The position numbers and the translations under genes were made by a program. Source: Deltaproteobacteria bacterium (lineage in GTDB: Bacteria; Desulfobacterota; Desulfobacteria; Desulfobacterales; ETH-SRB1). Taken from it: a stretch of DNA of 20,386 nucleotides. Below, in pieces: positions 3,166-19,687 of the stretch. Numbering within the stretch: the first letter of the stretch is position 1; every line of letters begins with the position of its first letter. The notes beneath the pieces are model-generated. The model saw only the letters and a program-made list of their open reading frames with translations, did not search any database and was not told the DNA's origin. Location: NCBI GenBank assembly GCA_030627475.1, contig DAOURZ010000003.1, positions 1-20,386 on the forward strand, given 5' to 3'.

Positions 3166-3179
3166 CGGAGAAATAAAAT

Positions 3180-4305: not shown

Positions 4306-4334
4306 ATTGCCTCCTTAACCGTGAACCGTTATAT

Positions 4335-4388
4335 ATTATAGCTGCACATAAAAATCAGGTTGTAACGATTGTACCTTTAATGTGTCAA
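4335..4388 (-). promoter_or_regulatory. Candidate proC promoter region
   Basis: Two partial promoter matches are visible on the minus strand. One is TTGACA (4383-4388) with a weak TTACAA 17 nt downstream. The other is a perfect -10 TATAAT (4335-4340) lacking a good -35. Either could drive proC. I cannot choose between them from sequence alone. Confidence 0.35.
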
Positions 4389-4414
4389 TGCTTTTACATG
4401 AAATATCTTGACTT

Positions 4415-4596
4415 AGGAACGTGGACGAAATAACTTCCACAAACAGGCACACAGATTTGGGTCGAATCTGACCAATCCCAGATCGCAAAAGTTGAAGGAA
4501 TTACGAGCTATTTCAAAATTTTTGTGCTTTTAGATCGGGCAAAGATGGCCTGATGCTGTGATGCATAGTTGTGGAAGTTATTTCGTCCACGTTCCT
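4415..4596 (+). mobile_element. Full-length MITE-like inverted-repeat element (copy 1)
   Basis: This 182-bp element runs from AGGAACGTGGACGAAATAAC to its inverted copy ending GTTCCT, with about 25-bp terminal inverted repeats extending into CTTCCAC/GTGGAAG. If the element proper begins at GGAAC, TTA flanks it on both sides (4413-4415 and 4596-4598), consistent with a 3-bp target duplication. Inside is a stem CAGATT/AATCTG around TGGGTCG, and a second stem between GATCGCAAAAG and CTTTTAGATC. It holds no plausible gene, so movement would need a transposase supplied elsewhere. It occupies most of the divergent proC-yggT intergenic region and ends 26 bp before the yggT start. Confidence 0.88.
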
Positions 4597-4622
4597 TATA
4601 ACAAAATAAGAGGCCTGCGGTT

Positions 4623-4922
4623 ATGTATGTAATTGGATATTTATTCATGGCAATTGCAAAAATTCTTGATATTGTGTTACTTCTATTCATGTGGATTATT
4701 ATAGGAAGAGCAATACTATCCTGGGTCAGTCCGGATCCCTTCAATCCTATTGTTCGTTTTATCAATAATGTTACCGAACCTGTTTTATATCGCATTCGTG
4801 CATTAATACCCGTTAATTTCGGAGGTATGGATTTCTCTCCGATTATTGTCCTGCTTGGAGTGATGTTCTTGCGAAGCTTTGTAGTAAACAGCTTGATGAG
4901 ACTATCTGCTAATTTATTATGA
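4623..4922 (+). CDS. yggT: YggT family membrane protein
   Basis: This 99-residue integral membrane protein has one YggT repeat. The first hydrophobic segment covers about residues 4-33 and the second about 72-92. Between them is the family signature RAILSWVSPDPFNPIVRF followed by NNVTEPVLYRIRALIP. Relatives (YggT in proteobacteria, YlmG in Gram-positives and plastids) are linked to membrane, division or osmotic functions, but no precise biochemical role is established. The ATG has AAGAGG about 9 nt upstream. It is followed 16 bp later by divIVA, a pairing also seen in other phyla and consistent with a role near the division or polarity machinery. The leader contains the right end of a MITE-like element. 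Confidence 0.92.
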   Translation: MYVIGYLFMAIAKILDIVLLLFMWIIIGRAILSWVSPDPFNPIVRFINNVTEPVLYRIRALIPVNFGGMDFSPIIVLLGVMFLRSFVVNSLMRLSANLL

Positions 4923-4938
4923 TATATGGTGAGATATA

Positions 4939-5439
4939 ATGAAAACCACACCACTTGATATTCAACAACAGCAGTTCAAAGTTAAATTTAGAGGATTTGA
5001 TATTCATGAGGTAGATAAATTCCTTGAACAAATGGCCGACACTTTTGCTTCATTGCGGCAGGAAAACGAGAACCTGCATGAAAAAGTTAGAAGGCTGAAG
5101 CTTGAAAGCCATGGGTATAAGGAACGCGAAGAAACCTTTAAGCGTGCTATGCTTAATTCTCAAAAAGTTCTTGAGCAGATGAAAGAAAATGCTCGGAAAT
5201 CGGCTGAATTAATCATAGCTGACGCAGAGGTCAGAGCGGAAAAGATACTCAACAGAGCACATAACAGACTGGCACAGTTGCATGAAGATATAGTTGAGCT
5301 TAAAAGACAGCGCTTGCAAATCGAAGTTCAAATCAGCTCTGTAATAGAGGCTCATTCAAAACTTCTTGAAATAGGAAAAGAAAGTATGGAAAGGTCGGAT
5401 GAAGATGACTCCAAATTAAAATTACTAAAAAAATCCTGA
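4939..5439 (+). CDS. divIVA: DivIVA domain-containing coiled-coil protein
   Basis: This 166-residue protein begins with the DivIVA N-terminal membrane-binding motif (TPLDIQQQQFKVKFRGFDIHE, then VDKFLEQM). A long heptad-rich coiled coil then runs to about residue 155, ending in a charged tail. In Gram-positives, DivIVA and GpsB proteins bind curved membrane at poles and septa and recruit partners. In Desulfobacterota the role is not well defined and may concern polarity or division. It lies between yggT and pilT on the same strand, with 16 bp to yggT and 42 bp to pilT, so co-transcription is likely. Placement next to pilT would fit polar organisation of pili, but that is inference. Confidence 0.9.
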   Translation: MKTTPLDIQQQQFKVKFRGFDIHEVDKFLEQMADTFASLRQENENLHEKVRRLKLESHGYKEREETFKRAMLNSQKVLEQMKENARKSAELIIADAEVRAEKILNRAHNRLAQLHEDIVELKRQRLQIEVQISSVIEAHSKLLEIGKESMERSDEDDSKLKLLKKS

Positions 5440-5481
5440 CAGTTCAGGCCGTTATAAAAGCAATATTCACCGGAGTCGCAA

Positions 5482-6564
5482 ATGGCAAAAATAGATGCGT
5501 TTTTCAAGTTGATGAATGATCAGGGTGCTTCAGATCTTCATCTTGTTGCAGGCCAACCACCCGCACTCAGAATAATGGGTGATATAGAAAGGGTCAAATA
5601 TAAGGTACTGGATACTGATGAGCTGAAAGCCATGCTCTATGAGATTGCGCCCGAAGACAAAGTCAAAACATTTGAAGAAACCGGAGATGTTGACTTTGGC
5701 TATGAAATACCCGGCCTTGCAAGATACCGGGCAAATTTCTTTATGCAGAGAAATGGCGCTGCAGCAGTTTTTAGGGAAATTCCAGCTACAATATTGACCG
5801 CTGAACAGCTTGGCCTTCCCCCTGTAATACCTAGACTGGCATCACTTCCAAGAGGTCTTGTCGTAGTAACAGGTCCTACAGGCAGCGGCAAATCAACTAC
5901 CCTGGCAGCCATAATTGATGTGGCAAATCATAGCCGTAAGGATCATATCATTACTGTCGAAGATCCGGTCGAATTTGTTCATGAAAGCAAGACCTGTATT
6001 GTAAACCACCGTGAGATCGGTCTTCATACCAAATCATTTAGCGCAGCCCTGCGCGGCGCTCTGCGTGAGGATCCTGACATTATTCTGGTCGGTGAAATGA
6101 GGGATCTTGAAACTATATCACTTGCCATAGAAGCTGCATCTACAGGACATCTTGTTTTCGGCACATTACATACTTCCAGCGCTGCTAAAACAGTTGATCG
6201 TATCATTGAGGTCTTTCCTGCAGGCGAACAGTCACAGATACGTTCCACGCTTTCTGACGGACTCAGAGCTATCGTAGCACAAGTACTGTTTAAAAGAATT
6301 GACAAGAGGGGGCGTTGTGCTGCTCTTGAAATATTGATTGCAAATCCTGCGGTCAGAAATCTGATAAGAGAAGCAAAAACCTATCAGATTCCTTCAATGA
6401 TTCAAACAGGAAAGAAATACGGCATGCAGCTTCTTGATGACGCTATAATGGAAATGTGTAAAAAAAGGATGATAAGTCCTGAAGAAGCTTACTCCAAAGC
6501 TAATGACAAATCAAAATTCAGGTCGCTATTAAAGACCCCGCCTGCAGACTTTACTGAAGCATAA
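5482..6564 (+). CDS. pilT: Type IV pilus retraction ATPase PilT
   Basis: This cytoplasmic hexameric ATPase powers depolymerisation of type IV pili (twitching). In its 360 residues the N-terminal PAS-like domain has ASDLHL and the RYRANFF segment. Walker A is GPTGSGKST (residues 131-139), followed by the ITVEDPVEFVH Asp box, Walker B ILVGEMRD, and the His box GTLHTSSA. The retraction motif AVRNLIRE (290-297) corresponds to the AIRNLIRE motif that separates PilT from PilB. The C-terminus (GMQLLDDAI) is intact. GGAG lies 9 nt upstream of the ATG. Pilus structural genes are not in this window. It is followed by a second PilT-like ATPase after a 95-bp palindromic element. Confidence 0.95.
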   Translation: MAKIDAFFKLMNDQGASDLHLVAGQPPALRIMGDIERVKYKVLDTDELKAMLYEIAPEDKVKTFEETGDVDFGYEIPGLARYRANFFMQRNGAAAVFREIPATILTAEQLGLPPVIPRLASLPRGLVVVTGPTGSGKSTTLAAIIDVANHSRKDHIITVEDPVEFVHESKTCIVNHREIGLHTKSFSAALRGALREDPDIILVGEMRDLETISLAIEAASTGHLVFGTLHTSSAAKTVDRIIEVFPAGEQSQIRSTLSDGLRAIVAQVLFKRIDKRGRCAALEILIANPAVRNLIREAKTYQIPSMIQTGKKYGMQLLDDAIMEMCKKRMISPEEAYSKANDKSKFRSLLKTPPADFTEA

Positions 6565-6566
6565 GG

Positions 6567-6661
6567 ATAGACATTTCAGATAAATAATTTCACTGCGTTA
6601 TCGGTCGGACTTATCGAAGTCCTCCCTCTGGCCTTGTGAAATGAATTATCTGAAAGTCTAT
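6567..6661. repeat. Palindromic element with nested hairpin between the two pilus ATPase genes
   Basis: A 27-nt left arm (6567-6593, starting ATAGACATTTCAGATAA) pairs with a 26-nt right arm (6636-6661, ending TTATCTGAAAGTCTAT) with few mismatches and one bulge. The 42-nt centre contains a perfect small hairpin, GGACTT-ATCG-AAGTCC (6607-6622). Its sequence is unrelated to the GGAACGTGG family. It begins 3 bp after the pilT stop and ends 13 bp before the next start. It could be a small mobile or REP-like element, or an RNA structure that modulates transcription between the two genes. No U-tract follows, so it is not a classical terminator. Confidence 0.8.
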
Positions 6662-6674
6662 AGTTAGGTTCGCT

Positions 6675-7835
6675 ATGAAAAAACAGGAAATTGATCATAT
6701 ACTGACAAAAATGCTTGATGCATCAGGCAATGTCTCGGACATTAACATCACTGCCGGCAAGCCGTTTCAGGTAGAAAGTTCAGGTGAGCTTATCGGAGTA
6801 AAAATAGATCCTCCTTTTCATGAACTCACACCGTTTCAGACTGAAATTTTCGCTCTGAACCTGATCAATCGGGACAAACGTCTTACAGATATTCTTCTGA
6901 GAGAGGGATCATGCGATTTGTCTTATGAACTTCCAGGCAAAACACGTTTCAGGGTAAATATCTTTTCCCGGCAAAGCAACTACTCTATTGTCCTCAGAAA
7001 ACTCGAAAGCAAAATTCCAACATGCAAAGAACTGGCGCTTCCCGAAGCATTTTATAAGATGGCCCAGGAAAAAAACGGAATTATTCTGGTAACAGGTTCC
7101 ACTGGAAGCGGAAAATCTACTTCTCTGGCCGGAGTACTTAATGAAATAAACGAAAGCAAATCAGTCCATATATTAACGCTCGAAGACCCTGTAGAATTTC
7201 AACACCCGCAAAAAAAGGCTACTTTCAACCAGAGGGAGATGGGAACCGATTTCGATAGTTTTGCCAATGGGTTAAGGGCCGCTCTCCGCCAGGCTCCAAA
7301 GGTAATACTGGTCGGCGAAATGCGTGACAGGGAAACTGTTGAGATTGGCCTCAGCGCGGCCGAAACAGGCCATCTGGTATTAAGTACCCTGCACACAGTG
7401 GACGCTGGGCAAACTATTAATCGCATTCTTGGTATGTTCAATACCGAGGAAGAGAAACAAATTCGCATCCGGCTTGCCGATACTGTCCGCTGGATCGTGT
7501 GCCAGAGACTTCTTCCCAAAATAGGAGGTAGTCGCGTGGCAGCCTTTGAAATCATGGGATCCAACCTCAGGACTAAAGATACGATTTTGAACGGAGAATC
7601 CGAGGGAAAAACATTTTACGAAATAATACAAGCAGGAAAAGCCTTTGGTATGCTCACTTTTGATGATTATATCGTAAATCTGTACAAAAAAAGCCACATT
7701 ACCGAAGATACAGCTATGGCCTATGCTTCCCGTAAAGGTGTAGTTGGCCGTGGAATCGACTCGTTAAAAAGTGCTCGAGGCGAGACTACCACCGATATCG
7801 AAAAACTGGAAGTGGACAGGAATTATAGAAAATAA
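6675..7835 (+). CDS. PilT/PilU-family type IV pilus ATPase (second paralogue)
   Basis: This 386-residue protein is homologous along its length to the upstream PilT. It keeps Walker A GSTGSGKST (141-149), the LEDPVEFQH segment, Walker B ILVGEMRDRET and the His box STLHTVDA, so it is probably an active ATPase. At the place of the PilT retraction motif AIRNLIRE it has NLRTKDTILNGE, which does not match. That divergence and a longer C-terminal tail (about residues 355-386) suggest a PilU-like accessory motor that works with PilT. A weak AGG lies 7 nt before the ATG. Its TAA stop is immediately followed by GGAACAGGGAC, a degenerate repeat terminus. The assignment to PilU rather than another PilT paralogue is inference. 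Confidence 0.88.
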   Translation: MKKQEIDHILTKMLDASGNVSDINITAGKPFQVESSGELIGVKIDPPFHELTPFQTEIFALNLINRDKRLTDILLREGSCDLSYELPGKTRFRVNIFSRQSNYSIVLRKLESKIPTCKELALPEAFYKMAQEKNGIILVTGSTGSGKSTSLAGVLNEINESKSVHILTLEDPVEFQHPQKKATFNQREMGTDFDSFANGLRAALRQAPKVILVGEMRDRETVEIGLSAAETGHLVLSTLHTVDAGQTINRILGMFNTEEEKQIRIRLADTVRWIVCQRLLPKIGGSRVAAFEIMGSNLRTKDTILNGESEGKTFYEIIQAGKAFGMLTFDDYIVNLYKKSHITEDTAMAYASRKGVVGRGIDSLKSARGETTTDIEKLEVDRNYRK

Positions 7836-7853
7836 GGAACAGGGACAAATATT
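7836..7853 (+). repeat. Possible degenerate MITE-like terminus abutting a stop codon
   Basis: GGAACAGGGACAAATATT follows directly after the TAA stop of the upstream ATPase gene and resembles the family terminus GGAACGTGGACGAAAT, with three substitutions over 16 positions. No second end is seen. The AGGGA inside it (7841-7845) is 8 nt from the next ATG and serves as its ribosome-binding site. The match is weak enough to be chance on its own. Confidence 0.35.
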
Positions 7854-8546
7854 ATGGAAGTTATATGCAAACAGTGTGAGAGTAAATTCAGAATTCCGGA
7901 TGAAAAGATCCCGCAAGGAAAAGCCTTTTCGTTAACCTGCCCGAAGTGCAATAATAAAATTTCCATAGACACTCGTCCTGCTGTTTCTTCATCGCACGAA
8001 AAAACCCCTGCCGTATCCGCCGAATCACAACCCGGCATGGAAAAGACAATCTTCGACGAGGTGGTTTCCAGCAATTACGACGCTTCCGAAAAGCCTTTTG
8101 ATTTTGTGGAAGAGGGTACGGAAACAGCTCTTTTGTGTGAACCTGACCCGGCCATCAGAGCCAGGATCAAAATGGCTTTGAATAAGATGGAATATACTAT
8201 CACAGAACCAAAGTCGGCTGTTGAAACTCTCAAGCAGATGCGCTTTCATGTTTTTGAACTGGTGGTGCTAAACGAATTGTTCGACACTCAGGATCCTGAC
8301 AAAAATAATCTCCTTAAATACATAGCTCAACTTACTATGAACACGAGACGAAACATCTTTTTGGCCATTGTCACCAACCGATTTCGCACCATGGATAGCA
8401 TGATGGCCTTCAACAAAAGTGCTAATATCATTGTCAACGTAAATAATGTTGATGAAATGCAAAAGATCCTCACGCGCAGCATAGCCGATAATACTGCATT
8501 TTATCACGTATTTAAAGAGTCGCTAGCTAAAACCGGCAATGTCTGA
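7854..8546 (+). CDS. Zinc-ribbon protein with degenerate receiver-like domain
   Basis: This 230-residue protein starts with an MJ0042-type zinc ribbon (C5-x2-C8 and C29-x2-C32, with the typical FRIPDEKIP segment). A disordered linker covers about residues 43-85. Residues about 90-215 look like a response-regulator receiver fold: LLCEPDPAIRARIKMALNKM resembles the acidic first strand and helix, and FELVVLNELF sits where the phosphoacceptor strand should be, but with Asn in place of Asp. This suggests a receiver that cannot be phosphorylated at the usual site. It follows the pilus ATPases by 18 bp, so a role in pilus or motility control is plausible but unproven. Its 3' end overlaps the coaX 3' end by 43 bp on opposite strands. 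The zinc ribbon is clear. The receiver call rests on pattern reading only. Confidence 0.75.
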   Translation: MEVICKQCESKFRIPDEKIPQGKAFSLTCPKCNNKISIDTRPAVSSSHEKTPAVSAESQPGMEKTIFDEVVSSNYDASEKPFDFVEEGTETALLCEPDPAIRARIKMALNKMEYTITEPKSAVETLKQMRFHVFELVVLNELFDTQDPDKNNLLKYIAQLTMNTRRNIFLAIVTNRFRTMDSMMAFNKSANIIVNVNNVDEMQKILTRSIADNTAFYHVFKESLAKTGNV

Positions 8547-9322
8547 TCCCGTCCTTTATAGCACTTTTCGTATATAATACGCAACCCTTCAAGCGTCAGT
8601 GTGGGCTCAAGCTTTTCTATACTGTCACAAACATCAGCTATAAGATTTGATAAACCTCCGGTGGCAATCACCTTGGGAGCAGAACCCATTTCAATCTTCA
8701 TCCGCCTTACTATTCCATCCACCAGACCTGAATATCCATAAATAATACCGGATTTTATGCTGCTTGTCGTATCTTTACCTATAACTTTTTCCGGGTGAGA
8801 AAATATTTCGACTCTTGGAAGTCTGGATGCCTTTAAGAACAGCGCTTCAGCAGAAATCATAATTCCGGGACATATTGCGCCACCGAGATATTCACCATTT
8901 GTTGAGACTGCATCAAAGGTAGTTGCTGTGCCAAAATCAATTACAATCAGGCTGGTTTTATATTTTTCAAATGCAGCAACCGAATTGGCAATTCTGTCAG
9001 CCCCCACCTCATCAGAATTTTTGTAAAGTATCGGCATTATATTGATAGATCTGGCATCTACCCATAATGGACTCTGCTCCAGGTATTTATGGCAAAAAGA
9101 ATCAAGAATTCTTACCAGGGGCGGGACAACGCAGGATATGACAACGTTGCTTATATCTTTAGATTTTATATCGCTTCCGCTAAACAAACTGACCGCAATA
9201 ATATTAAACTCATCTTCCGTTATTGTATTTACAGTTCTTATTTGCCAGTTTCCGGCCAGTTTCCGGCCATTGTAAATACCGATTACGGTGTTTGTATTTC
9301 CGACATCTATAACAAGAAGCAT
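8504..9322 (-). CDS. coaX: Type III pantothenate kinase
   Basis: CoaX phosphorylates pantothenate, the first committed step of coenzyme A synthesis. The type III enzyme is insensitive to CoA feedback and belongs to the ASKHA fold. The sequence shows the phosphate-binding DVGNTNT (from D6), GADR (107-110, with catalytic D109), the second phosphate motif DFGTATTFDA (from D129), GGAICPG, and ATGGLSNLI. The usual family end (EGLRIIYEK) is followed by about 18 extra residues that overlap the convergent gene at 8504-8546. The ATG at 9322 has no visible ribosome-binding site. The 52-bp gap after folP instead holds a telomere-like repeat. It is the last gene of the tilS-ftsH-folP-coaX cluster. The function is secure. 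Confidence 0.95.
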   Translation of the reverse strand: MLLVIDVGNTNTVIGIYNGRKLAGNWQIRTVNTITEDEFNIIAVSLFSGSDIKSKDISNVVISCVVPPLVRILDSFCHKYLEQSPLWVDARSINIMPILYKNSDEVGADRIANSVAAFEKYKTSLIVIDFGTATTFDAVSTNGEYLGGAICPGIMISAEALFLKASRLPRVEIFSHPEKVIGKDTTSSIKSGIIYGYSGLVDGIVRRMKIEMGSAPKVIATGGLSNLIADVCDSIEKLEPTLTLEGLRIIYEKCYKGRDQTLPVLASDSLNT

Positions 9323-9328
9323 TGTAAT

Positions 9329-9354
9329 CAGGGTTTAGGGGTTTTAGGGTTACA
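9329..9354 (+). repeat. Short G-rich tandem repeat (AGGGTTT-like)
   Basis: Three units of the type AGGGTTT, AGGGGTTTT and AGGGTT follow one another in the folP-coaX gap. On the transcribed strand they read as CCCTAAA-like units just upstream of the coaX start, where a ribosome-binding site would be expected. Only three G-runs are present, one short of a canonical intramolecular quadruplex. Confidence 0.5.
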
Positions 9355-9374
9355 ATTTATAATTTCTCATAATC

Positions 9375-10256
9375 TCATAAACAGACGCTTCTGATTTTAT
9401 CAATTATTGCCGATGTTAAACGTGCTTTGGCAACGTCATGAACCCTTACAATATGAGCACCGTTTAAAACCGCAACGGCAATTGCTGCCTGAGTTCCTGT
9501 TTCAAGTTCCAACATTTCAAGCCTGGTATCACCGCCTTGGCTGCCCTCAAGAACATTTCGAATAAATGATTTTCTTGAAGGCCCGATCAAAACAGGATTA
9601 TTCAGAGTTTTAAATTTATCTATATGCTTAATTATAAGAAAATTATGTTCGACTGTTTTGCCGAAACCAATTCCGGGATCTATAATTATTTTAGACCTTG
9701 CAATTCCATTTTTTGAAGCTCTGTCAATTGCTTTTTTAAAAAATTTCCTGATCTCTTTTATAAGATGATCATAGTGTGGAGCAATCTGCATTGTTTCAGG
9801 AGTACCCTTCATGTGCATGATGACTACCGGCACTTCATATTTTGCTGCAATGCCCGTCATGTCAGGGTCTTTGTACATAGCGCTTATATCGTTGATCATA
9901 GAAGCGCCGGATTCAATAGCCTGTTTCGCTATACTTGCCTTTGTTGTATCAATTGAAATGGGAATTGATACACGTTTTGCAAGCTTTTCAATAACCGGCA
10001 AAACACGCCTGCCTTCTTCTTTAATAGATACAGGCTCGGAAAACGGCTTTGTGGATTCACCTCCTATGTCAATTATATCAGCGCCTGCCTCAGCCAGTTT
10101 TTCACCATGAGCCACTGCTGCATCACATGAAAAAAAAAGGCCTCCATCTGAAAAAGAATCGGGAGTCACATTTAAAATTCCCATAATACACGTACGATTA
10201 CCAAGTGAAAGACTATGCGAACCCCATGAAAGTTTATATGATTTGCAACTGTTCAA
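9375..10256 (-). CDS. folP: Dihydropteroate synthase
   Basis: FolP condenses p-aminobenzoate with dihydropterin pyrophosphate in folate synthesis and is the sulfonamide target. The TIM-barrel signatures are all present: MGILNVTPDSFSDGG (residues 25-39), ADIIDIGGESTKP, ISIDTTKA, MINDIS, VVIMHMKGTPETMQ, IIIDPGIGFGKT and IGPSRKSFI. It ends with the HDVA motif (VRVHDVAKA). Length (293) is normal. The predicted start is TTG at 10256, 7 bp after the ftsH stop, with AAGGGGTAAGGG overlapping the ftsH end as its ribosome-binding site, so translation is probably coupled to ftsH. The ftsH-folP order is common in this group. Confidence 0.96.
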   Translation of the reverse strand: MNSCKSYKLSWGSHSLSLGNRTCIMGILNVTPDSFSDGGLFFSCDAAVAHGEKLAEAGADIIDIGGESTKPFSEPVSIKEEGRRVLPVIEKLAKRVSIPISIDTTKASIAKQAIESGASMINDISAMYKDPDMTGIAAKYEVPVVIMHMKGTPETMQIAPHYDHLIKEIRKFFKKAIDRASKNGIARSKIIIDPGIGFGKTVEHNFLIIKHIDKFKTLNNPVLIGPSRKSFIRNVLEGSQGGDTRLEMLELETGTQAAIAVAVLNGAHIVRVHDVAKARLTSAIIDKIRSVCL

Positions 10257-10263
10257 TAAGCCC

Positions 10264-12120
10264 TTACCCCTTGTCCTTGGCAGCCTTATCCTTGGCCTTG
10301 GCCTTGGCCTCAGGCCCCAGCACTATATCCGGTCTCATGGAACGAATCAGATCATCAAGCGCATCTCCTTTGACAGTTTCTTTTTCAAGCAGAAGTTCTG
10401 ACAATTTATGGAGGATATCTATATTCTCATTCAAAATTTCTTTTGCATGTTTGTATGCATTCTTTATGAGAATAGTTATTTCTTCATCAATTTTTTTCGC
10501 TGTTTCTTCGGAATAATCTCTTGCGTGTGATATTTCACGACCCAGAAAAATCTGTTCTTCACCCTTGCCGTAAGAAAGCGGTCCCAGTTTTTCACTCATG
10601 CCCCATGTCCGCACCATTTGCTGAGCAAGATCCGTAGCCTGTTTGATATCGTTGGCTGCTCCTGTGCTTATACGGTTAAAAACAATTTCTTCTGCAACTC
10701 TTCCTCCAAAAGAAACGGTCAAATCGTTTTCCAGTTGATCCTTAAATTTAAAATCTCTCTCTTCCGGTAAAAACCAGGTAATGCCTGCGGCACGGCCCCT
10801 TGGAATAATTGTAATTTTGTTAACCGCATCAGCTCCAGGCAGAAAACGAGATACAAGAGCGTGGCCGCCTTCGTGATATGCCGTTACTTTCCTGTCCTCT
10901 TCCCTTATTACTTTGGATTTGCGCTCAAGCCCCATGTAAACCTTGTCTTTTGCATCTTCAAAGTCAGCCATATCAACCTTGTCTTTATCTCTTTTAGCAC
11001 CAAGCAAAGCAGCTTCATTGACAAGATTTTCCAGATCGGCTCCGGAAAAGCCCGGTGTTCCTCTTGCAAGAATACCTACTGACACATCGTCTGCAATTGG
11101 TATTTTTTTCATGTGAACTGTGAAAATTTCTTCGCGCCCTTTAATATCCGGCAATGCAACAACGACCTGTCGATCAAAACGGCCGGGACGCAATAGAGCC
11201 GGGTCAAGAACATCCGGCCTGTTTGTAGCAGATATTAATATGACGCCTTCGTTTGATTCAAATCCATCCATCTCAACGAGAAGTTGATTTAAAGTTTGCT
11301 CTCTTTCGTCATGCCCTCCACCGAGACCTGCCCCTCTATGCCTTCCAACAGCATCTATTTCATCAATAAAGATAATGCACGGAGCGTTCTTTTTACCCTG
11401 GGCAAAAAGATCCCTTACACGCGATGCACCTACTCCGACAAACATCTCAACAAAATCAGAACCGCTTATACTAAAAAAAGGCACATCGGCTTCGCCGGCA
11501 ATAGCTCGCGCCAAAAGGGTTTTTCCTGTACCCGGCGATCCCATAAGAAGAACCCCTTTAGGTATTCGTCCGCCAAGACGTGTAAACTTTTTGGGGTCTT
11601 TAAGAAAATCAACAATCTCTCCCAATTCTTCCTTTGCTTCATCAATTCCGGCAACATCAACAAACGTTACCTTCTGCGACTGGTCTGACTGCAGACGAGC
11701 ACGACTCTTCCCAAATGAAAGCGCCTTGCCGCCACCGGTCTGCATCTGGCGCATAAAAAATATCCAGACTCCTATAAGTACAAGCATGGGAAGCCATGAA
11801 GCAAGAAGAGATATATACCAGGGCGACTCTGACGGTGGTTTTGCATTAATAGCAATGCCCTTGTTCCTGAGCATCTTGATAAGATCACTGTCCTGAGGCG
11901 CAAACACCTTAAAATGATTATGGTTTATATCTGTTACAAAAAGTTCCTGACCTTGAATAACGACTTCTTCAATTTGCTCCGCATCAACCATTGCAAGAAA
12001 TTCCGTGTAATTAATCTTTCCTTCAACCGGTTGCTGCTGCTGATTAAAAAGATTATAAAGCATTATCATCATTAGCGTAATGACAAGCCATAAAGCGATA
12101 TTCTTATAAAATGGGTTCAA
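10264..12120 (-). CDS. ftsH: ATP-dependent zinc metalloprotease FtsH
   Basis: This membrane-anchored AAA+ protease degrades damaged membrane proteins and regulatory substrates. Two transmembrane segments (about residues 8-25 and 101-123) bracket a small periplasmic domain. The AAA module has Walker A GSPGTGKT (194-201), Walker B IIFIDEID (249-256) and the second region of homology ending LLRPGRFDR. The protease site is HEGGH (H416, E417, H420), with a third zinc ligand probably D491 in [13 protein letters not shown]. At 618 residues it has normal length. The start is TTG at 12120 with GGAGG 9 nt upstream. The C-terminal tail [13 protein letters not shown] is encoded by a CCTTGG hexamer repeat (about 10268-10310). 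It is followed by folP after 7 bp. Confidence 0.97.
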
Positions 12121-12206
12121 AAGATATTTCCTCCAAAAATTTAAAAATTAGGTAATCGTGAACCATAAACCTGAATAGTTATCTCATATTAATCATAATT
12201 AAATAC

Positions 12207-13721
12207 TTAGGCAAGAGAAACTTCCACTTTAAGTATATTTTCTGTTGATTGTTTTACTTTAAAGCAATCATCTATTCTGTAGCCCACAACCCATATTATT
12301 TTCTCCTGACTAAGCAGTATCGGGCATCTATCACGTTGAATTCTTGTAATCTTATTATTAATAAAATATTTTTTTACCTTCTGTGTACCGGACATGCCAA
12401 AAGGTTGAAACCTGTCACCAGGTCGAACGTTTCTTACAACCAAAGGGAAACAAAGTTTATCCATATCAAAAAAAGCAACATTATGTCCGGTACGATAAAT
12501 ATCAGACAGATTTTTAATATTGATCTCAAAAAAATTTATCTTTAAACCCAATTCCTTAATTAATAATGAATTGGGAGATATCTCCTCTTTAAAGCCAGCC
12601 TCCGGTTTTAATATCCTGTATTCAAATGAAAGTTTATTTTTATCACTTGATTCCTTATGCAGATCACGCAATGCTCCCTTTTCTCTTAAAAAGGTAATAA
12701 TATCTCCATCTCGTTTAATCCGGATACGATCGGGAAGGTCGATATAACCTGAAGCAGGTCCGCTATTTAAAAGGGAAATAATTGAATCTATGTGTGAAAA
12801 GCTAATGCGCCTCAAATTTCCTTTTATTTCTGCAATCGCTTTTCTTATAATTCTTCTCCGGGCTGCAATATGTAATTCATTAATTGAAAATATTGAAAGA
12901 GCAACTGAATTATTCTCAGCAGTTAGAACAAATTTGTTAAACATGGAATTTATTAAATCATCTACCCATTCCTCTTCAGAACTTACAATTGATGCAAAAC
13001 GGTTAATAGTTTCCACTATCTTTTTATTATAAGAAGATTTTAAATGTGGTATTAAACGATGACGTATTCTGTTCCTGAGATATCTCTCGTCAAAATTAGA
13101 TTTGTCTAAAACAAACTTTAATTCATTAATCGTCAGAAATTCAAGTATTTCGGATTTGGTTAATTTCATTAAAGGACGAATAATTTTCCCGTCCCTTACT
13201 GGTGGAATTCCTGAAATACCAAGTGGACCACTTCCCCGCAATAAATGCATTATTACAAGCTCTGCGTTATCATCTGCATTATGACCAAGAGCAATCTTGT
13301 TAAATATGTATTTCTCTGCGACACTTTCAAAAAATCTATAGCGAACAATTCTTGCTGCTTCTTCTAAAGATAACTTTTTTTCATGTCGATATTTATTGAC
13401 ATCTTCCTTTTTAATATAACAAGGCAAATCAAATTTGCGTGCAAGGAATGCAACAAACTCAGCATCATCGTCTGAATCTTTTTGCCTGAGGCAGTGATTT
13501 AAGTGAGCGACACCGACTCTAAGGGAAAATCGTTGAGCCAATGAGAGTATAATATAAAGCAGAGCGACAGAATCAGGCCCGCCTGACACACAGACCAGGA
13601 CTGAATCCCCTGGCTCAATCATACTGTATGCCCTGATGGTTCCTTCTACAGTCTTTATCAATCTGTTTTTGTAATCTTTACTTGTAAAAATTATTTCGTT
13701 CACGTTCCTAATATAATTCAT
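12207..13721 (-). CDS. tilS: tRNA(Ile)-lysidine synthetase
   Basis: TilS attaches lysine to C34 of the CAU-anticodon isoleucine tRNA so that it decodes AUA, an essential step. The PP-loop SGGPDS is at residues 46-51, followed by AHLNHCLR, the ALGHNADDNAELVIMHLLRGSG block and RNRIRHRLIPHL. The C-terminal domain (VRNVRPGDRFQPFGM) is intact, and length (504) is normal. The start is uncertain. The ATG at 13721 has no ribosome-binding site, and its first residues (NYIRNVNEIIF) are encoded by a MITE-like terminus. TTG at 13661 and ATG at 13622 are alternatives, and 13661 best fits the family N-terminus. It leads the cluster with ftsH 86 bp downstream. Confidence 0.94.
   Translation of the reverse strand: MNYIRNVNEIIFTSKDYKNRLIKTVEGTIRAYSMIEPGDSVLVCVSGGPDSVALLYIILSLAQRFSLRVGVAHLNHCLRQKDSDDDAEFVAFLARKFDLPCYIKKEDVNKYRHEKKLSLEEAARIVRYRFFESVAEKYIFNKIALGHNADDNAELVIMHLLRGSGPLGISGIPPVRDGKIIRPLMKLTKSEILEFLTINELKFVLDKSNFDERYLRNRIRHRLIPHLKSSYNKKIVETINRFASIVSSEEEWVDDLINSMFNKFVLTAENNSVALSIFSINELHIAARRRIIRKAIAEIKGNLRRISFSHIDSIISLLNSGPASGYIDLPDRIRIKRDGDIITFLREKGALRDLHKESSDKNKLSFEYRILKPEAGFKEEISPNSLLIKELGLKINFFEINIKNLSDIYRTGHNVAFFDMDKLCFPLVVRNVRPGDRFQPFGMSGTQKVKKYFINNKITRIQRDRCPILLSQEKIIWVVGYRIDDCFKVKQSTENILKVEVSLA
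13689..13709 (-). repeat. MITE-like single terminus at the tilS 5' end
   Basis: On the minus strand the sequence AGGAACGTGAACGAAATAAT matches the family terminus with one substitution in the first 17 positions. Its outer flank (TAATATAATTC on the plus strand) resembles that of the palindrome at 3056-3090. Only one half is present. It falls at codons 5-11 of the longest tilS reading frame. Confidence 0.75.
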
Positions 13722-13757
13722 AATTAATATTTTTCAAATTATTATAGCTGTTTCCCC

Positions 13758-13788
13758 TTGAAAAATTTATTTTATGGATTACTTTATA
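13758..13788 (+). promoter_or_regulatory. Candidate promoter for the SRP RNA
   Basis: TTGAAA (13758-13763) and TTTATA (13783-13788) are separated by 19 nt, and transcription from here would start near the predicted 5' end of the RNA at about 13798. The spacing is slightly long, so the assignment is tentative. Confidence 0.4.
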
Positions 13789-13797
13789 CAAATGGTT

Positions 13798-14040
13798 GTG
13801 CTATGCGGGGAGTTAGCGGTGCCCTATTCCCGAAATCCGCTTAATGCGGGGCTGAATTCCCTTATAGAGAGTTTTATCATGGATATTTTCGGGTCATCTT
13901 GACCGGCCGCTGCGCAACAGACAATCACGAACCTCGTCAGATCCGGAAGGAAGCAGCGATAAGTGATGCGATCTGTGTCGTGGATTGATTCCGGTTGAGT
14001 TTTGGCTTAAATATTTCAGAAAAGATTCGATAGAGGGTGC
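13798..14040 (+). ncRNA. ffs: Signal recognition particle RNA, large bacterial type
   Basis: This RNA scaffolds Ffh for co-translational targeting of membrane proteins. The invariant helix 8 region GTCAGATCCGGAAGGAAGCA (from 13936) contains the GGAA tetraloop and the Ffh-binding asymmetric loop. Upstream, GTGCTATGCGGGGAGTTAGC then GGTGCCC, with GAATTCCC after the CCGCTTAATGCGGGG hairpin, matches the Alu-domain 5' part of the long SRP RNA class found in Firmicutes and some Desulfobacterota. This is not the ~110-nt E. coli form. Helix 5 pairing is visible, for example CTTGACCGG (13909-13917) with CCGGTTGAG. The 3' end is estimated from the last helix 5 pairing (GAGGG near 14037). Ends are approximate to 10-20 nt. 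Confidence 0.9.
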
Positions 14041-14056
14041 ACAACCATACACCCCC

Positions 14057-14084
14057 TTGACATTCTTACAGATAGTATTATTTT
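14057..14084 (+). promoter_or_regulatory. Candidate grpE-dnaK promoter
   Basis: A perfect -35 TTGACA (14057-14062) is followed after 16 nt by TATTTT (14079-14084). It resembles a housekeeping promoter. I see no CIRCE operator (TTAGCACTC-N9-GAGTGCTAA) and no clear heat-shock sigma-32 promoter between the SRP RNA and grpE, so the heat control of this operon is not evident. Confidence 0.4.
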
Positions 14085-14138
14085 TGTTCAAATTTTTGGT
14101 TTTAATAAAGATGTTAAAAAAATTAGGAGCAACTCTAT

Positions 14139-14714
14139 TTGATGACCGACCATAAAAATGAAATTAAAAAAAAAGCTGCGGATGACAAGCCTGTTGAAGA
14201 TAATGAAGTATCCTCAAAAAAAAATTCAGACAGGACCATTGATTCTTCAAAAAAGATTAAATCTCCAAAAGAAGAACTCAAAGAAACATATGATCGCTTC
14301 TTGAGAGTTTCTGCTGAATTCGAAAATTATAAAAAACGCTCTACTCGCGAAATGTCCGAGTTTAAAAAGTTCGCAAATGAATCCTTAATTAAGGAATTAC
14401 TTCTAATTATTGACAATTTGGAACTGGCAATAAATTCATCAAAAGATGAAGGGAACTCAAATAATGGTCTAATTGAAGGCATTGATATGACCCTTAAAAA
14501 ATTACTTAAAATTTTAGGGGAATTTGGTTTAAAACAAATTGAATCACTGGAAAATCCTTTTGATCCGAATTTTCATCAGGCTGTCATGCAGGAGGAGACC
14601 AATAAACATTCGCAAAATACAGTTATAAAAGAGCTTCAAAAAGGGTATATACTTAATGAAAGATTACTAAGGCCAGCAATGGTCGTAGTCTCTAAAGAAC
14701 AACAAACAGATTAG
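14139..14714 (+). CDS. grpE: Nucleotide exchange factor GrpE
   Basis: GrpE is the DnaK cochaperone that opens the nucleotide-binding domain to release ADP. The roughly 45-residue N-terminal part is lysine-rich and disordered. It is followed by the long dimerising coiled coil ([20 protein letters not shown] with [14 protein letters not shown], about residues 47-80). The C-terminal beta domain ends with [10 protein letters not shown] and [18 protein letters not shown], both family signatures. Length is 191. TTG (14139) and ATG (14142) are adjacent in-frame starts. AGGAG (14125-14129) is 9 nt from TTG and 12 nt from ATG, so TTG may be favoured by spacing, but the difference is one residue. The gene is followed by dnaK after 23 bp in one operon. 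Confidence 0.96.
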
Positions 14715-14737
14715 ATATAATCACAAGGAGGAGAACA

Positions 14738-16684
14738 ATGGGTAGGGTAATAGGAATTGACCTTGGCACTACAAATTCATGTGTGGCTGTAATGGAAGCG
14801 GGTGAAGCAAAGGTAATAACCAACCCCGAGGGAGGGCGTACTACCCCTTCCGTTGTTGCCGTTACAGAAAGTGGCGAGAGATTGGTAGGCCAGATTGCAA
14901 GGAGACAGGCAATCACAAATTCGGAGAATACGATTTTTGCCGTAAAGAGACTTATAGGACGAAAGTTTGCTTCACCTGAAGTACAAAATGATATCAAGAT
15001 ACTTCCTTACAAACTTGAGCAGGCAAGCAACGGTGATATACGAATAAATCTTCGTGGAAAACAACACAGTCCTGCGGCAATATCGTCTTTTATACTGGCA
15101 AATATCAAGAAAACAGCGGAGGAATACCTTGGAGAAAAAGTTACGGACGCAGTAGTAACCGTGCCCGCATATTTTAACGACAGCCAGCGCCAGGCAACCA
15201 AGGATGCCGGAAAGGTTGCAGGCCTGAATGTTTTAAGAATTATAAACGAACCGACTGCTGCATCACTTGCTTATGGTCTGGACAAAAAAGGCGAAGAAAA
15301 AATTGCTGTCTTTGATCTTGGTGGAGGTACATTTGATATATCCATACTTGAAATTGGAGAAGGTGTTTTTGAAGTAAAATCTACAAATGGTGATACTCAT
15401 CTCGGTGGAGAAGATTTCGACCTTCGACTTATTGATTATATGGCAGATGAATTCAAAAAAGATCAGGGTATTGATATAAGAAACGATAAAATGGCTTTAC
15501 AGCGTCTTAAAGAAGCTGCGGAAAAAGCCAAGATGGAATTATCCACATCAATGGAAACAGATGTAAATCTGCCATTCATAACTGCCGACGCCAGTGGGCC
15601 AAAACACCTTAATATAAAGCTGACAAGAGCCAAACTTGAAGCGCTTATAGCTGATTTGCTCGACAAGCTGGACAAACCTTGCCAAACTGCAATTAAAGAT
15701 TCAGGCTTCTCTCCAAAAGATATTAATGAAATTGTACTTGTTGGCGGCATGAGTCGTATGCCGGCTGTTCAGGAAAGAGTTAAAAAAATATTTGGTAAAG
15801 AACCTAACAAAAGCGTTAACCCTGACGAAGTAGTTGCAATAGGCGCATCCATTCAGGGTGGGGTGCTTAAAGGAGATGTTAAGGACGTTCTCCTCCTTGA
15901 TGTTACGCCTCTTTCTCTTGGAATTGAGACTTTGGGCGGCATTATGACAAAACTGATCGAAAAAAACACAACAATTCCTACCAAAAAAAGCCAGACTTTT
16001 TCAACCGCTGCCGACAACCAGCCTGCGGTTTCCATTCATGTTCTGCAGGGAGAAAGGGAAATGGCTACCGGAAACAAAACTCTTGGGCGTTTCGAACTTG
16101 TTGGCATACCGCCCGCACCAAGAGGTATGCCCCAGGTAGAGGTAACCTTTGACATTGATGCCAACGGTATTGTGAATGTAACTGCTATAGATCAGGCTAC
16201 AGGCAAGGAGCAGTCAATCCAGATTACTGCCTCTTCCGGTTTGTCAAAGGAAGAAATAAACAACCTGGTCAAAGATGCGGAACTTCATGTAGAAGATGAC
16301 AAAAAGAAAAAGTCTTTGGTAGAAGCTCGCAATACTGCAGACTCTCTGATCTATTCTACTGAAAAATCTTTAAAAGAGCTTGGAGACAAGATTGATAGTG
16401 CCATCAAGACTAAAGTTGAAAATGCAATAGGCCCGCTTAAAAAAGCAATGGAAGGTGATGATGAAGCGGAAATCAAACGTTTGAGCGATGAATTGACTCA
16501 AGCTTCACACAAAGTGGCTGAAGCCATGTATCAGAAGGCATCTCAGGCTGGAGAACAACAAGATGCAGGTGCAACAGGTGCAGCAGGTGCAGCAGGTGGT
16601 ACACAACAGGCAGAGACTTCTTCATCACCGGATGAAGACGTAGTAGATGCCGATTTTGAAGAAGTAAAAGACGAGAAGAAATAA
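14738..16684 (+). CDS. dnaK: Molecular chaperone DnaK (Hsp70)
   Basis: This ATP-dependent chaperone folds and protects cytoplasmic proteins together with GrpE and DnaJ. Visible signatures are the phosphate loop [14 protein letters not shown] (from residue 5), [19 protein letters not shown], the linker [19 protein letters not shown], and the substrate-binding domain with [14 protein letters not shown]. The C-terminal lid ends in an Ala/Gly-rich stretch (encoded by a GGTGCA repeat near 16565-16600) and the conserved acidic tail [12 protein letters not shown]. Length is 648, normal for the family. The ATG has an excellent ribosome-binding site (AAGGAGGAG). dnaJ does not follow. The gene ends before a strong hairpin terminator and a convergent gene. 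Confidence 0.98.
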
Positions 16685-16695
16685 AAAAAATCAAT

Positions 16696-16732
16696 TTTGT
16701 CGGGTGGGAAAAATGGTTTCCCACCCGACAAA
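16696..16732. terminator. Strong bidirectional hairpin between dnaK and the U32 gene
   Basis: A perfect 16-bp stem (16696-16711 with 16717-16732; core GTCGGGTGGGAAA) has a 5-nt loop AATGG. It starts 12 bp after the dnaK stop and ends 16 bp from the stop of the convergent U32 gene. On the minus strand the stem is followed by a U-rich run (opposite the A-run at 16684-16690), so the terminator is best formed for the U32 gene. On the plus strand the 3' side is A-rich and lacks a U-tract. Confidence 0.85.
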
Positions 16733-16747
16733 TCAAATAAGATCCAC

Positions 16748-18736
16748 TCAAACAAGATCCAGATCCCAATTCCAGAGACCGGGCCTTTTTTTCATCTTAA
16801 CGCCTTCCGGCAAAGGTTCTATCATCTGTATAAAAATACTGTAACCTGCTTTTTCAAGCCCTTCCTTTTTATCTCTGAGATCAAGTTTCCAATTTGGATA
16901 TACCCAGAAATCTGATCCGTATTTTCTTACCCAGGCCTGTTCTCCCTTTGGGCTGCTGAATAACTCTTCTGTTTTAACATCTTCTGACAGAAAGCGTGAG
17001 ATGCTAAGTGGCCAGTTTCCGGATATTACAATACCCAAAGGAAGAGGACTATGTTCCGGTAGTTGCAAATAATCTTTTCGGCCCAGCTCCGGGCTGACAA
17101 CAACTCCGGTAAAACCCAATTTTGCCAGGGAATCTATGGCCAGCGTATTTGTTATATTGCAAAATGGTCCTGCCCATAGATTTAATTTCTTTTGTTCCTT
17201 AAAAAAGGCCATCTGCCATGGAATATTCAGAACAAAATTACGGCCGCCTCTTTTTAATATAAATTCGATAATCTCTTTATATTTTTTCTCCTGTTCAGGC
17301 CATAGAACCGGAGGAAGCCACCACCATATATTAGACGCAATGCCGCTATGAAGCTTTTCCCTGAATTCATCATGCAGCCAGATTCCAATCTGATTACAGG
17401 ATTTTTTCTTGTTCATTTTTCTGAATACATGAATTTCAAATATGCTTTGCTTTTTGTTATATCTCTTTGACAGTTTTGCATTAAATGTTGAAGAATCAAC
17501 CTTAAACTCTTGCTGTCCGGAAAGCTCATTCTCAACTTTGTCCATCATATCTCCAAGAGCCTTTTCCCGTCTGTCTATCAGAAAAACAGGACTGCCTGAC
17601 GAAACATTTTTTCCTGAAACCGGATTAAGATAAAAGCGCCCCCTTTTCGGCACGTATTTGCCGACTCTGTTTACACTATGCCAATGATCATCTTCATATC
17701 CAATGCGCAGAATATCGTTAGGCAAAAGCTCTTCTATCGGAATAAAATAAGGTTTATTTTTAAAACCTTTTGTTTTTCCTATATAAAGGCCGGAAGCGGT
17801 TTGGGCATTTATGTCTACTGGATTATATGGCCGTTGCGGTAAAAAATTAAAATGCGTCCCTGCCCTGCCGAGAGCTCGTAATATCAGTTGAAGAGCTGTT
17901 TTTTTCATCTGCGGATCGCTCCCATGATCCCTTAACATTTGATATGCCTTGACTATGTAAAAAACATAATGAGGACCTTTTTTACGACCCTCAATCTTCC
18001 AGACCTTCACTTCAGGAACAGGCAACAAAGTCTTGACAAGCGCATCAAGACTTAAATCCTGACATGAAAAAAATCTTTTGGAAGTATTATTTTCCTGAGT
18101 ATAAAATCTGCGGCATGGCTGAACACATCTGCCCCTGAGCCCGCTTTTGCCGCCCATATAACTGCTCCAGTAACACCTGCCTGAAATTCCGTAACAAAGA
18201 GCCCCTTGAACAAAAACTTCGAGGCCATGACCGTTTGTACAGGCATCGGCCATAGCCTTAATTTCATCTATATTAAGCTCTCTTGGAACAACCGTCAGGT
18301 TGACTCCAAGTCGTTGGCGAACAAACTTCAACGCCATTGGAAAACTTATATTAGCAAGTGTGGATAAATGGACTTCTCCAGTAAAACCGGTTTGCCGGAT
18401 TAACTCTATAAATGATAAATCCTGTATTATAAGGGAATCAGGTCTGCCAAACCTCTCCAACTGATCAAGAAGCCTTCCCGCTTTATTAAGATCCTCCTGC
18501 TTTAAAAGAGAGTTGAATGCTACATAAACTTTGGTTCCCATATCATGGGCAAGTTGAATAAGAGGAATTAATTCTTCAATTGAAAAATTTTTTGCCTCCA
18601 TCCTGGCCGATAATATTTTAAGCCCGCAATATATAGCATCGGCCCCTGCTGCAAGAGCAGATAGAAATGAGTCTTTGTTCCCTGCCGGAGCCAAAATACA
18701 GGGAACATGTTTTTTATTTTTTTCATTGTTAATCAT
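16748..18736 (-). CDS. U32-family peptidase-like protein (probable Fe-S RNA-modification type)
   Basis: This protein of about 662 residues belongs to the U32 family, named for collagenase-type peptidases. Characterised members mostly act in RNA hydroxylation or ubiquinone synthesis (RlhA, TrhP, UbiU/V). The N-terminal barrel starts CILAPAGNKDSFLSALAAGA, and the signature EVFVQGALCYGISGRCYWSS is followed by RGRCVQPCRRF. The four cysteines (181, 188, 204, 208) are spaced as in the members that bind a 4Fe-4S cluster. A C-terminal extension of about 400 residues is like that of the longer RlhA-type proteins. A TTG at 18838 would add 34 residues without family features, so ATG 18736 is chosen. No clear ribosome-binding site is seen for either. 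An rRNA modification role is inference. Confidence 0.85.
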   Translation of the reverse strand: MINNEKNKKHVPCILAPAGNKDSFLSALAAGADAIYCGLKILSARMEAKNFSIEELIPLIQLAHDMGTKVYVAFNSLLKQEDLNKAGRLLDQLERFGRPDSLIIQDLSFIELIRQTGFTGEVHLSTLANISFPMALKFVRQRLGVNLTVVPRELNIDEIKAMADACTNGHGLEVFVQGALCYGISGRCYWSSYMGGKSGLRGRCVQPCRRFYTQENNTSKRFFSCQDLSLDALVKTLLPVPEVKVWKIEGRKKGPHYVFYIVKAYQMLRDHGSDPQMKKTALQLILRALGRAGTHFNFLPQRPYNPVDINAQTASGLYIGKTKGFKNKPYFIPIEELLPNDILRIGYEDDHWHSVNRVGKYVPKRGRFYLNPVSGKNVSSGSPVFLIDRREKALGDMMDKVENELSGQQEFKVDSSTFNAKLSKRYNKKQSIFEIHVFRKMNKKKSCNQIGIWLHDEFREKLHSGIASNIWWWLPPVLWPEQEKKYKEIIEFILKRGGRNFVLNIPWQMAFFKEQKKLNLWAGPFCNITNTLAIDSLAKLGFTGVVVSPELGRKDYLQLPEHSPLPLGIVISGNWPLSISRFLSEDVKTEELFSSPKGEQAWVRKYGSDFWVYPNWKLDLRDKKEGLEKAGYSIFIQMIEPLPEGVKMKKRPGLWNWDLDLV

Positions 18737-18908
18737 ATTGAACTTTATAACATAATAAAACTTACTAAGAAAAGTATTTCTTACTGAGGAACCACAAAAC
18801 AAGTTTAATGTTTTAGTTAAAAAATACTTTACACTCAATAAATTTTGTTATAGATAATCAAATTCTAATTGAGAATTTTATAAAAATATAATTTCAGGAG
18901 AAATAATC

Positions 18909-19100
18909 ATGTCAAGGATGTGTGAAATATGCGGGAAAAAACCACTTGTGGGCAATAATGTAAGCCATGCACATAATATAACGAAACGTCGATTCAAGCC
19001 GAATCTTCAGAAAGTACGTACGCTTTATAAAGGAAGGGTAAAAAGAATAAGGGTGTGTACTCGTTGTATAAAGGCAGGTTGTGTTGTAAAGGTAGCTTAG
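18909..19100 (+). CDS. rpmB: 50S ribosomal protein L28
   Basis: This small ribosomal protein (63 residues) binds 23S rRNA in the large subunit. The sequence shows the L28 core [19 protein letters not shown], then [13 protein letters not shown]. It is the zinc-binding (C+) form with C5, C8, C50 and C53. AGGAG lies 9 nt before the ATG. The stop codon TAG (19098-19100) sits exactly on the junction with a MITE-like element: TA belongs to the TTA target and G is the first base of GGAAC. The encoded C-terminus is of normal length, so the insertion kept the protein intact. The gene stands alone between a divergent U32 gene and non-coding DNA. Confidence 0.97.
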
Positions 19101-19215
19101 GAACAGTGGACGAAATAACTTCCCCAACTATACATCACAGCTTCAGACCGCCTTTGTCCGATCTCGAACCTAAAAGCTATCAAACAATTTTTGGGATTTG
19201 AGATCGGTAGCGTTC
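19098..19215 (-). mobile_element. Inverted partial MITE-like element after rpmB
   Basis: TTAGGAACAGTGGACGAAAT begins at the rpmB stop and continues through CTTCCCCAACTATACATCAC and CCTTTGTCCGATCTC. This matches the reverse complement of the right half of copy 1 (4415-4596), so this copy lies in the opposite orientation. A perfect 8-bp stem CCGATCTC/GAGATCGG is seen around the centre. Similarity fades near 19215 and the other terminus is missing, so the copy is truncated or decayed. Confidence 0.78.
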
Positions 19216-19369
19216 GGCATGTTTTTTTACTGCAATATATAACAGTCTGATTTTATTTGATGGTTAAAACAGATAGATTTGGCATATAAAATGTTTTTCA
19301 GAAATAGTTTTTCTTGAATGCAGTAATATTAAGTGGTTACAATTTGATAGACAATATTCATACCGAATG
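19216..19369. other. AT-rich stretch without recognised features
   Basis: Between the truncated MITE-like copy and the rhodanese-like remnant I see no convincing reading frame, RNA gene or repeat. It is probably decayed sequence. Confidence 0.5.
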
Positions 19370-19489
19370 CTATTGATCTGAGATCGCAATTACACTTTTC
19401 TCCCCCCCTAAAATCCAGTTTATCATATTGTACAAATTACTGTATCCGGCATCCTCAATAGCCGAAGCAACACTTCTTACTCCAATATA
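19370..19489 (-). pseudogene. Remnant of a rhodanese-like domain
   Basis: The minus strand encodes, without interruption for about 39 codons, YIGVRSVASAIEDAGYSNLY and then NMINWILGG, ending in a TAG at 19370-19372. GVRS with a following AGYxNLYNM resembles the C-terminal half of rhodanese sulfurtransferase domains (loop CxxGxRS, then GYxNVYNMxGG). Going upstream, the reading frame meets TGA exactly where the MITE-like element at 19492 begins, at about the position of the expected catalytic cysteine. The rest of the gene is not visible on the far side of the element. It looks like a decayed gene cut by the insertion. The rhodanese identity is from residue pattern only. Confidence 0.5.
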
Positions 19490-19491
19490 TC

Positions 19492-19687
19492 AGGAACGTA
19501 AACGAATTAATTTTCCCAAACGACACACAGATTTTGATCGAATTTGTTTGATCTCAGATTACAGAAGTTGATGGGATAGCTAACTATTTCAATATGTTCA
19601 GGATTCAAGAGACTGGATTTAAAACTCCGGTCACAAGCGGCCTGAAGCTGTACACCTACTTGCCGAAGTTGTTTCGTCCACGTTCCT
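19492..19687 (+). mobile_element. Full-length MITE-like inverted-repeat element (copy 2)
   Basis: This 196-bp element begins AGGAACGTAAACGAATTAAT and ends GAAGTTGTTTCGTCCACGTT then CCT. It has the same orientation and internal order as copy 1, including ACACAGATTTTGATCGAATT and the segment AGCTAACTATTTCAA (AGCTATTTCAA in copy 1). The small internal stem is kept, CAGATT pairing with AATTTG through a G-U wobble in place of one A-U pair. The left end has several changes from the terminus seen elsewhere, while the right end is nearly intact. Flanks are TCA and TTA. It lies between the rhodanese remnant and the Cache-domain gene, 46 bp before the start of the latter. Confidence 0.85.

Follow-up and report, generated by a model that had tools for sequence, protein, structure and literature searches.

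The window analysed here, 20,386 nucleotides of a Deltaproteobacteria genome, is the whole of contig C315, from an assembly of 2.07 Mb in 483 contigs that is 90% complete. It carries several copies of a short palindromic repeat, and the best-preserved of these, copy 1, lies at 4416–4595. We consider it highly probable that these repeats are a family of miniature inverted-repeat transposable elements (MITEs) and that an ISAzo13-family DDE transposase mobilised them in trans. An earlier note on this DNA had seen MITE-like elements of no recognisable family, but they can be placed by their ISAzo13-type ends, so that the repeats gain a transposase family, a target rule and defined ends. The transposase would recognise an end of about 29 bp, GGAACGTGGACGAAATAACTTCCCCAACT, and insert the element into TWA (TTA or TAA, which are one site on opposite strands), duplicating 3 bp. 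Its source would be an insertion sequence (IS) of the type found at locus L208, or close kin, acting in trans, and the shorter size classes (66–70 and 30–34 bp) may be products of internal deletion. The proposal builds on the observed ends, 3-bp duplication, empty sites and copy numbers, and on a related IS that shares the left end.

Target duplication, empty sites and an ISAzo13 transposase

We collected pairs of inward-facing ends less than 260 bp apart, with at most 3 mismatches per end, from the fetched loci and the window, which gave 154 distinct pairs. The 3-bp flanks were identical in 104 of them, and 99 of the 104 were TTA or TAA. When the right flanks were shuffled in 5,000 trials, the number of identical 3-bp flanks averaged 59.2, with a maximum of 78. 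Identity reached 4 bp in a single pair. Most elements belong to one size class (100 pairs at 175–186 bp), with 15 at 192–195 bp, 5 at 200–207 and 3 at 155–169; the shorter ones number 19 at 55–81 bp, 7 at 93–108 and 5 at 30–46. Every element is shorter than 260 bp, the limit set for the search. The genome of the window itself contributes 21 pairs, of which 8 are TTA/TTA or TAA/TAA, 2 have other identical flanks and 11 differ.

For empty sites, we compared the joined flanks of 100 elements with the loci in hand. Matches spanned the junction in 36 cases, and nine junctions were inspected. A single TWA is clear at four of them (L106 against L276, TTA; L095 against L147, TAA; L110 against L208; L160 against L129), the target has changed at three (L106 against L275, L149 against the window, L107 against L088), and the junctions of L009 and L021 are not clean. 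Several of the empty sites fall inside other multi-copy sequences. The interval between proC and yggT, where copy 1 lies, tells the same from genome to genome. Among eight congeneric genomes the MITE is present there in G000, G001 and G005 and absent from G003, G004 and G007; the parts seen of G002 and G006 are without it, and their contigs break there. The exact empty site of copy 1 was not seen at proC–yggT, where the flanks in its own genome differ from those of the relatives by a missing stretch.

The elements have transposed. They are short and without a transposase gene, and they have terminal inverted repeats, a target duplication of fixed length and insertion polymorphism. The MITE nature proposed in the earlier note is thus borne out by the duplications and the empty sites, both of which it had suggested looking for.

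Two side observations belong here. In G001, two full MITEs stand back to back with one TTA in common (L079, 1319–1681). The flanks of the MITEs at L095, L106, L160 and L021 match several other loci, and from this further repeat families probably exist.

The link to ISAzo13 comes from locus L208 in the congener G003. A TAA there is followed, from position 919, by an end that agrees with the MITE right-end consensus at 29 of 29 bases, and behind this left end of the IS lies a transposase in two overlapping frames, 983–1528 and 1468–2340. The second and larger piece scores 363.8 bits against the ISAzo13 model NF033519 (cut-off 200) and 329.7 against PF07592 (cut-off 26.9); the first reaches 101 with NF033519, under the cut-off, and has no PF07592 match. 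Locus L295 (1446–1593, G004) is a 148-bp derivative with CAA on both sides, in which the first 71 bases of the IS meet, overlapping slightly, the 64 bases of the L208 contig end, with a terminus after them. L302 holds a second right end. Since L295 joins both ends of the IS, the IS would measure about 1.62 kb. For the autonomous element with the same ends that the earlier note had proposed to look for, L208 is a candidate: its left end is exact, this copy is broken, and its right end is predicted from L295 and L302. Close intact transposases are available as protein sequences only. Mobility in trans, which that note could only suppose, is made likely by this relative.

Decayed pieces of the L208-type IS occur in G000 (C280) and G001 (C135), and at L110 a MITE is inserted in the 3' end of an IS remnant. 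In the genome of the window, PF07592 matches one 54-residue fragment only. Of 66 ISAzo13 loci considered across the order, the 64 with a tblastn match were scanned ungapped for ends. GG ends with TWA duplications were found at 10 of the 64, representing 8 distinct elements, with GGAA in six; the ends nearest to those of the MITE are at L238 (20/27) and L234 (19/27). The ungapped scan gave no convincing pair at the remaining loci, among them a further G129 copy and one in G292. Among the best 120 of 7,952 metagenome matches, intact transposases of 418–432 amino acids are 91–93% identical over 95–96% of the query (P0001–P0003 and P0005–P0007); P0004 is shorter, and P0007 represents 86 sequences. 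Three of these six intact-transposase clusters are on contigs of 1,617–1,860 bp, near the predicted size of the IS. Binning easily loses short contigs of multi-copy ISs, and the intact IS may be missing from the genomes for this reason.

Other routes to an autonomous element were rejected. Ten open reading frames (ORFs), taken from long end-pair stretches or from the clustering of ORFs between inward ends, were scanned as candidates; among those of long pairs with TWA flanks and the clusters, eight of the ten had Pfam matches (lipoyl synthase, FabH-like, cation efflux, FUR/FeoA, DHH/DHHA2, DUF2232, DUF4147/MOFRL and Ig-like), none of them a transposase, and two had no match. The clustering gave five groups of two members, four of which were one contig fetched twice; the fifth (L117 and L180) includes the DUF4147/MOFRL gene, which is not a transposase.

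Several points weigh against an ISAzo13 origin of the movement. The only near-complete parent IS in the genus, L208, is broken, with its right end cut by the contig end. G003, which has this IS, holds 11 termini, whereas G001, with 1,183, shows only remnants and one relative at 40% identity. A DNA search with L208 matches the 180-bp elements over the first 29 bases alone, and because the MITE interior shares nothing obvious beyond the termini, descent of the 180-bp class from the L208 IS is not established. Clear ends were recovered at just 10 of the 64 ISAzo13 loci. Identical flanks are missing in 50 of the 154 pairs. Movement itself was not observed.

We also considered other ways in which such repeats could arise. 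The same TWA duplication would be expected if the MITEs were moved by another DDE family, IS5/IS1031-like and the bacterial kin of PIF/Harbinger, as IS1031-type elements and Tourist MITEs duplicate TNA/TWA too. However, the 22 DDE_Tnp_1 and DDE_Tnp_4 loci (21 distinct places) in the eight congeneric genomes have no such terminus in their fetched flanks, where the sole matches are unpaired with 4 mismatches in 16, and the exact MITE end fronts an ISAzo13 transposase. We rejected these IS5-type partners and hold this explanation to be very unlikely. We give next to no credence to palindromes like the repetitive extragenic palindromic (REP) sequences and bacterial interspersed mosaic elements (BIMEs), mobilised by a Y1 (RAYT) transposase. 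The repeats do resemble them in being palindromic, mostly intergenic and present in many copies, and a 33-bp palindromic form exists, but 100 of the 154 pairs are 175–186 bp long with defined 3-bp duplications, against 20–40 bp for tagged REPs, which are not known to make such a target duplication. The elements do not show the 20–40 bp palindrome with a GTAG or CGTC tag; the RAYT gene itself was not searched for.

The placement of the elements raised another question, namely whether insertion is aimed at stop codons (TAA) so that proteins are left intact. Of the 129 elements of 100 bp or longer, 23 share more than 20 bp with a gene predicted by a crude ORF call. Among 92 gene 3' ends that face an element, the distance is 0 in 7 cases, −1 in 4 and −18 in another 4, which would fit such targeting. 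A random choice among the TWA sites of the respective intergenic stretch does as well: after exclusion of 16 sites inside ORFs, 5.4 of 61 would be expected and 6 were observed (P 0.45). This permutation gives no support to stop-codon targeting, which we regard as hardly credible.

A palindrome with partly coupled arms

The whole 180-bp element is an imperfect palindrome. The earlier note described terminal inverted repeats of about 25 bp, which falls short: copy 1 has 35 nt at 91%, and the inverted repetition extends from one end of the element to the other. When the consensus of 100 full copies is aligned with its reverse complement, 146 of 184 columns are identical, and this consensus folds end to end into one hairpin (−118.8 kcal/mol). 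Folding z scores in a chosen subset of 27 elements range from −3.0, for the second full copy of the window, to −20.3.

Standard pairs make up 98.1% of the pair cells in the 100 copies, and both sides have changed in 13 of 51 pairs. In 500 shuffles none of five measures was reached, and sliding the partner lowers every measure; the shuffle test is inflated by the relatedness of the copies, and a structure taken from the sequences themselves will exceed its slid versions. A tree was built with the columns of nine pairs left out, and no null was run for it. On this tree, pair 7–186 has 10 and 10 changes (joint 14) and pair 52–143 has 10 and 12 (joint 16). Pairs 62–133 and 39–155 change nearly independently, and the five other pairs are intermediate. 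As some pairs change jointly and others do not, the arms are partly coupled. The covariation makes likely the earlier suggestion that folding may matter. Selection, correction of one arm by the other and the need for both ends to suit one transposase could each account for the coupling.

One idea that we find doubtful is that the full-length hairpin is more than a by-product: paired changes, made once an element has inserted or while it spreads, would keep the two 90-nt arms complementary, the hairpin (as single-stranded DNA or RNA) being the actual intermediate or functional form. If true, the hairpin form would explain more than 1,000 termini in a genome holding only IS remnants. It is quite unlikely, in our judgement, that the hairpin is kept for a host function of the RNA or cruciform, such as transcript ends or mRNA stability, with the copies as domesticated regulatory parts. 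The high rate of standard pairing, the two-sided changes and the repeated joint changes at pairs 7–186 and 52–143 would fit this, but arm-to-arm correction or one transposase needing both ends predicts the same covariation, the shuffle control is inflated as described, and pairs 62–133 and 39–155 change nearly independently. Copies are also patchy between congeners, and the 7 full copies of the window's own genome stand at a mean of 89.0% to the consensus, below the 94.0% of 85 others (8 further rows were left out).

Copies in the window and spread among genomes

We located the pieces in the window by blastn of the family consensus. All four copies listed in the earlier note were found, in both orientations as it had said, and up to three further pieces bring the number to as many as seven:

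1–49, + strand: left portion of an element that the contig edge interrupts; adjoins the end of a radical-SAM (nrdG-like) gene, 54–752
3057–3089, no strand assigned: minimal derivative, a 33-bp palindrome in which two termini have fused; flanks ATA/TTA
3144–3166, + strand: degenerate single terminus, weak (E 0.01)
4416–4595, + strand: full-length 180-bp element (copy 1), 88% identity; TTA at 4413–4415 and 4596–4598; between proC and yggT
13688–13708, + strand: right terminus on its own, inside the 5' extension of the tilS ORF (E 0.003)
19100–19207, − strand: truncated element with a single terminus; blastn segments 19100–19168 and 19187–19207 are one copy, opposite in orientation to 4416–4595 and 19493–19686
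19493–19686, + strand: full-length element of 194 bp, from the longer size class, 74% identity; flanks TCA/TTA

Pieces 3144–3166 and 13688–13708 are not secure because the shuffled consensus also gave 2 matches at E<=0.01 over 50 shuffles. The TTA on both sides of copy 1 is as first described, and the TCA/TTA flanks of the 194-bp element are a target duplication with one change. Apart from the one in the tilS ORF extension, the pieces are all outside Pfam-recognised genes; the tilS ORF has its first Pfam match from residue 41, and its start may have been called too far upstream.

Some neighbouring features were seen along the way. The rpmB stop codon TAG (19098–19100) consists of the flank TA and the first G of the truncated MITE. 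Upstream of yggT the relatives have in common a promoter-like stretch, TTGACTT...ATATTTGAT (window 4306–4622); in the genome of the window the sequence past TTGACTTA is absent and the MITE occupies that place, so copy 1 may have replaced part of the yggT promoter. At its gathering threshold, Rfam found in the window only a bacterial large signal recognition particle (SRP) RNA gene (RF01854, 13796–14044).

A search for the terminus in this genome and its relatives, as the earlier note had proposed, showed how far the family has spread. With a 14-base terminus and at most 1 mismatch, the window's genome has 220 occurrences (126 + 94) against 1 for the reversed pattern; a 22-base pattern with at most 2 mismatches gives 198. 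In congeners the 22-base pattern occurs 1,183 times in the 3.5 Mb genome G001, 313 in G005, 87 in G006, 59 in G004, 18 in G007, 11 in G003 and 3 in G002, with zero control matches in all eight genomes of the genus. It matched in 16 of 58 genomes searched, and the control matched once each in three. This range of 3 to 1,183 termini within one genus is a natural series for asking what limits the spread of bacterial MITEs. Some of these uncultured relatives of sulphate reducers thus carry very many copies, and the family is probably one reason why their assemblies are broken into hundreds of contigs.

With copy 1 as a 182-base query and only two candidates per genome scored, 24 of the 389 genomes searched in the order matched at E<=1e-12; they represent 12 of 150 genera. 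The best match was 88%, in G146 of another family, and the seven congeners were at 80–90%. The patchy occurrence across genera suggests transfer between lineages. Among the matches listed, the exact 22-mer occurs in metagenome-assembled genomes named Desulfobacteraceae, Desulfobacterales, Deltaproteobacteria 'EthSRB1' and Desulfococcaceae HSG9. Plasmids gave no match at E<=1e-5, and viral contigs had neither the exact terminus nor a transposase relative. In the two-contig relative G064, 28 termini were counted against 5 control matches in 400 kb sampled, and L311 (8622–16517) has several end pairs with the same flanks (ggtta...ttatt) at intervals of about 1.5–3 kb, a pattern resembling tandem duplication of a larger unit.

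Comparison with known systems

These elements are of an ordinary kind, bacterial MITEs, with a high copy number, and we did not find ISAzo13 reported for MITEs in the open-licence literature. Among the matches listed there, 'ISAzo13' and 'MITE' occur together in PMC9208149 only, whose passages name them in separate places; a review of prokaryotic MITEs (PMC10969869) has no occurrence of ISAzo13, and Seep-SRB1 is in none of the matches listed. Both ISAzo13 and the eukaryotic Zator make 3-bp duplications, according to PMC10045372. With ISAzo13 (PF07592/NF033519; eukaryotic kin Zator) the present elements share the 3-bp duplication, here TWA, and, in the case of the nearest elements, GG ends with a AAATAACTTCCCCA-like stretch; one congener also has the identical left terminus together with an ISAzo13 transposase. 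They differ in having no transposase gene, in a length of 180 bp against about 1.3–1.6 kb, and in being palindromic throughout. Tourist MITEs of plants (PIF/Harbinger) are likewise short, non-autonomous and flanked by TWA duplications, but they belong to another transposase family and another host.

REPs are described in PMC3733652 as 20–40 bp long, one end bearing a GTAG or CGTC tag. The REP/BIME likeness lies in palindromic form, mostly intergenic position and many copies. The present elements differ in size, in the 3-bp duplication and, as proposed here, in a DDE rather than a Y1 transposase. Among the bacterial MITEs named in PMC3733652 are RUP, NEMIS and Nezha. Like bacterial MITEs generally, the present elements have no coding capacity, terminal inverted repeats, a target duplication and a hairpin fold; what sets them apart from RUP, NEMIS and Nezha, by description and not by sequence, is their ISAzo13-type ends and as many as 1,183 termini in 3.5 Mb.

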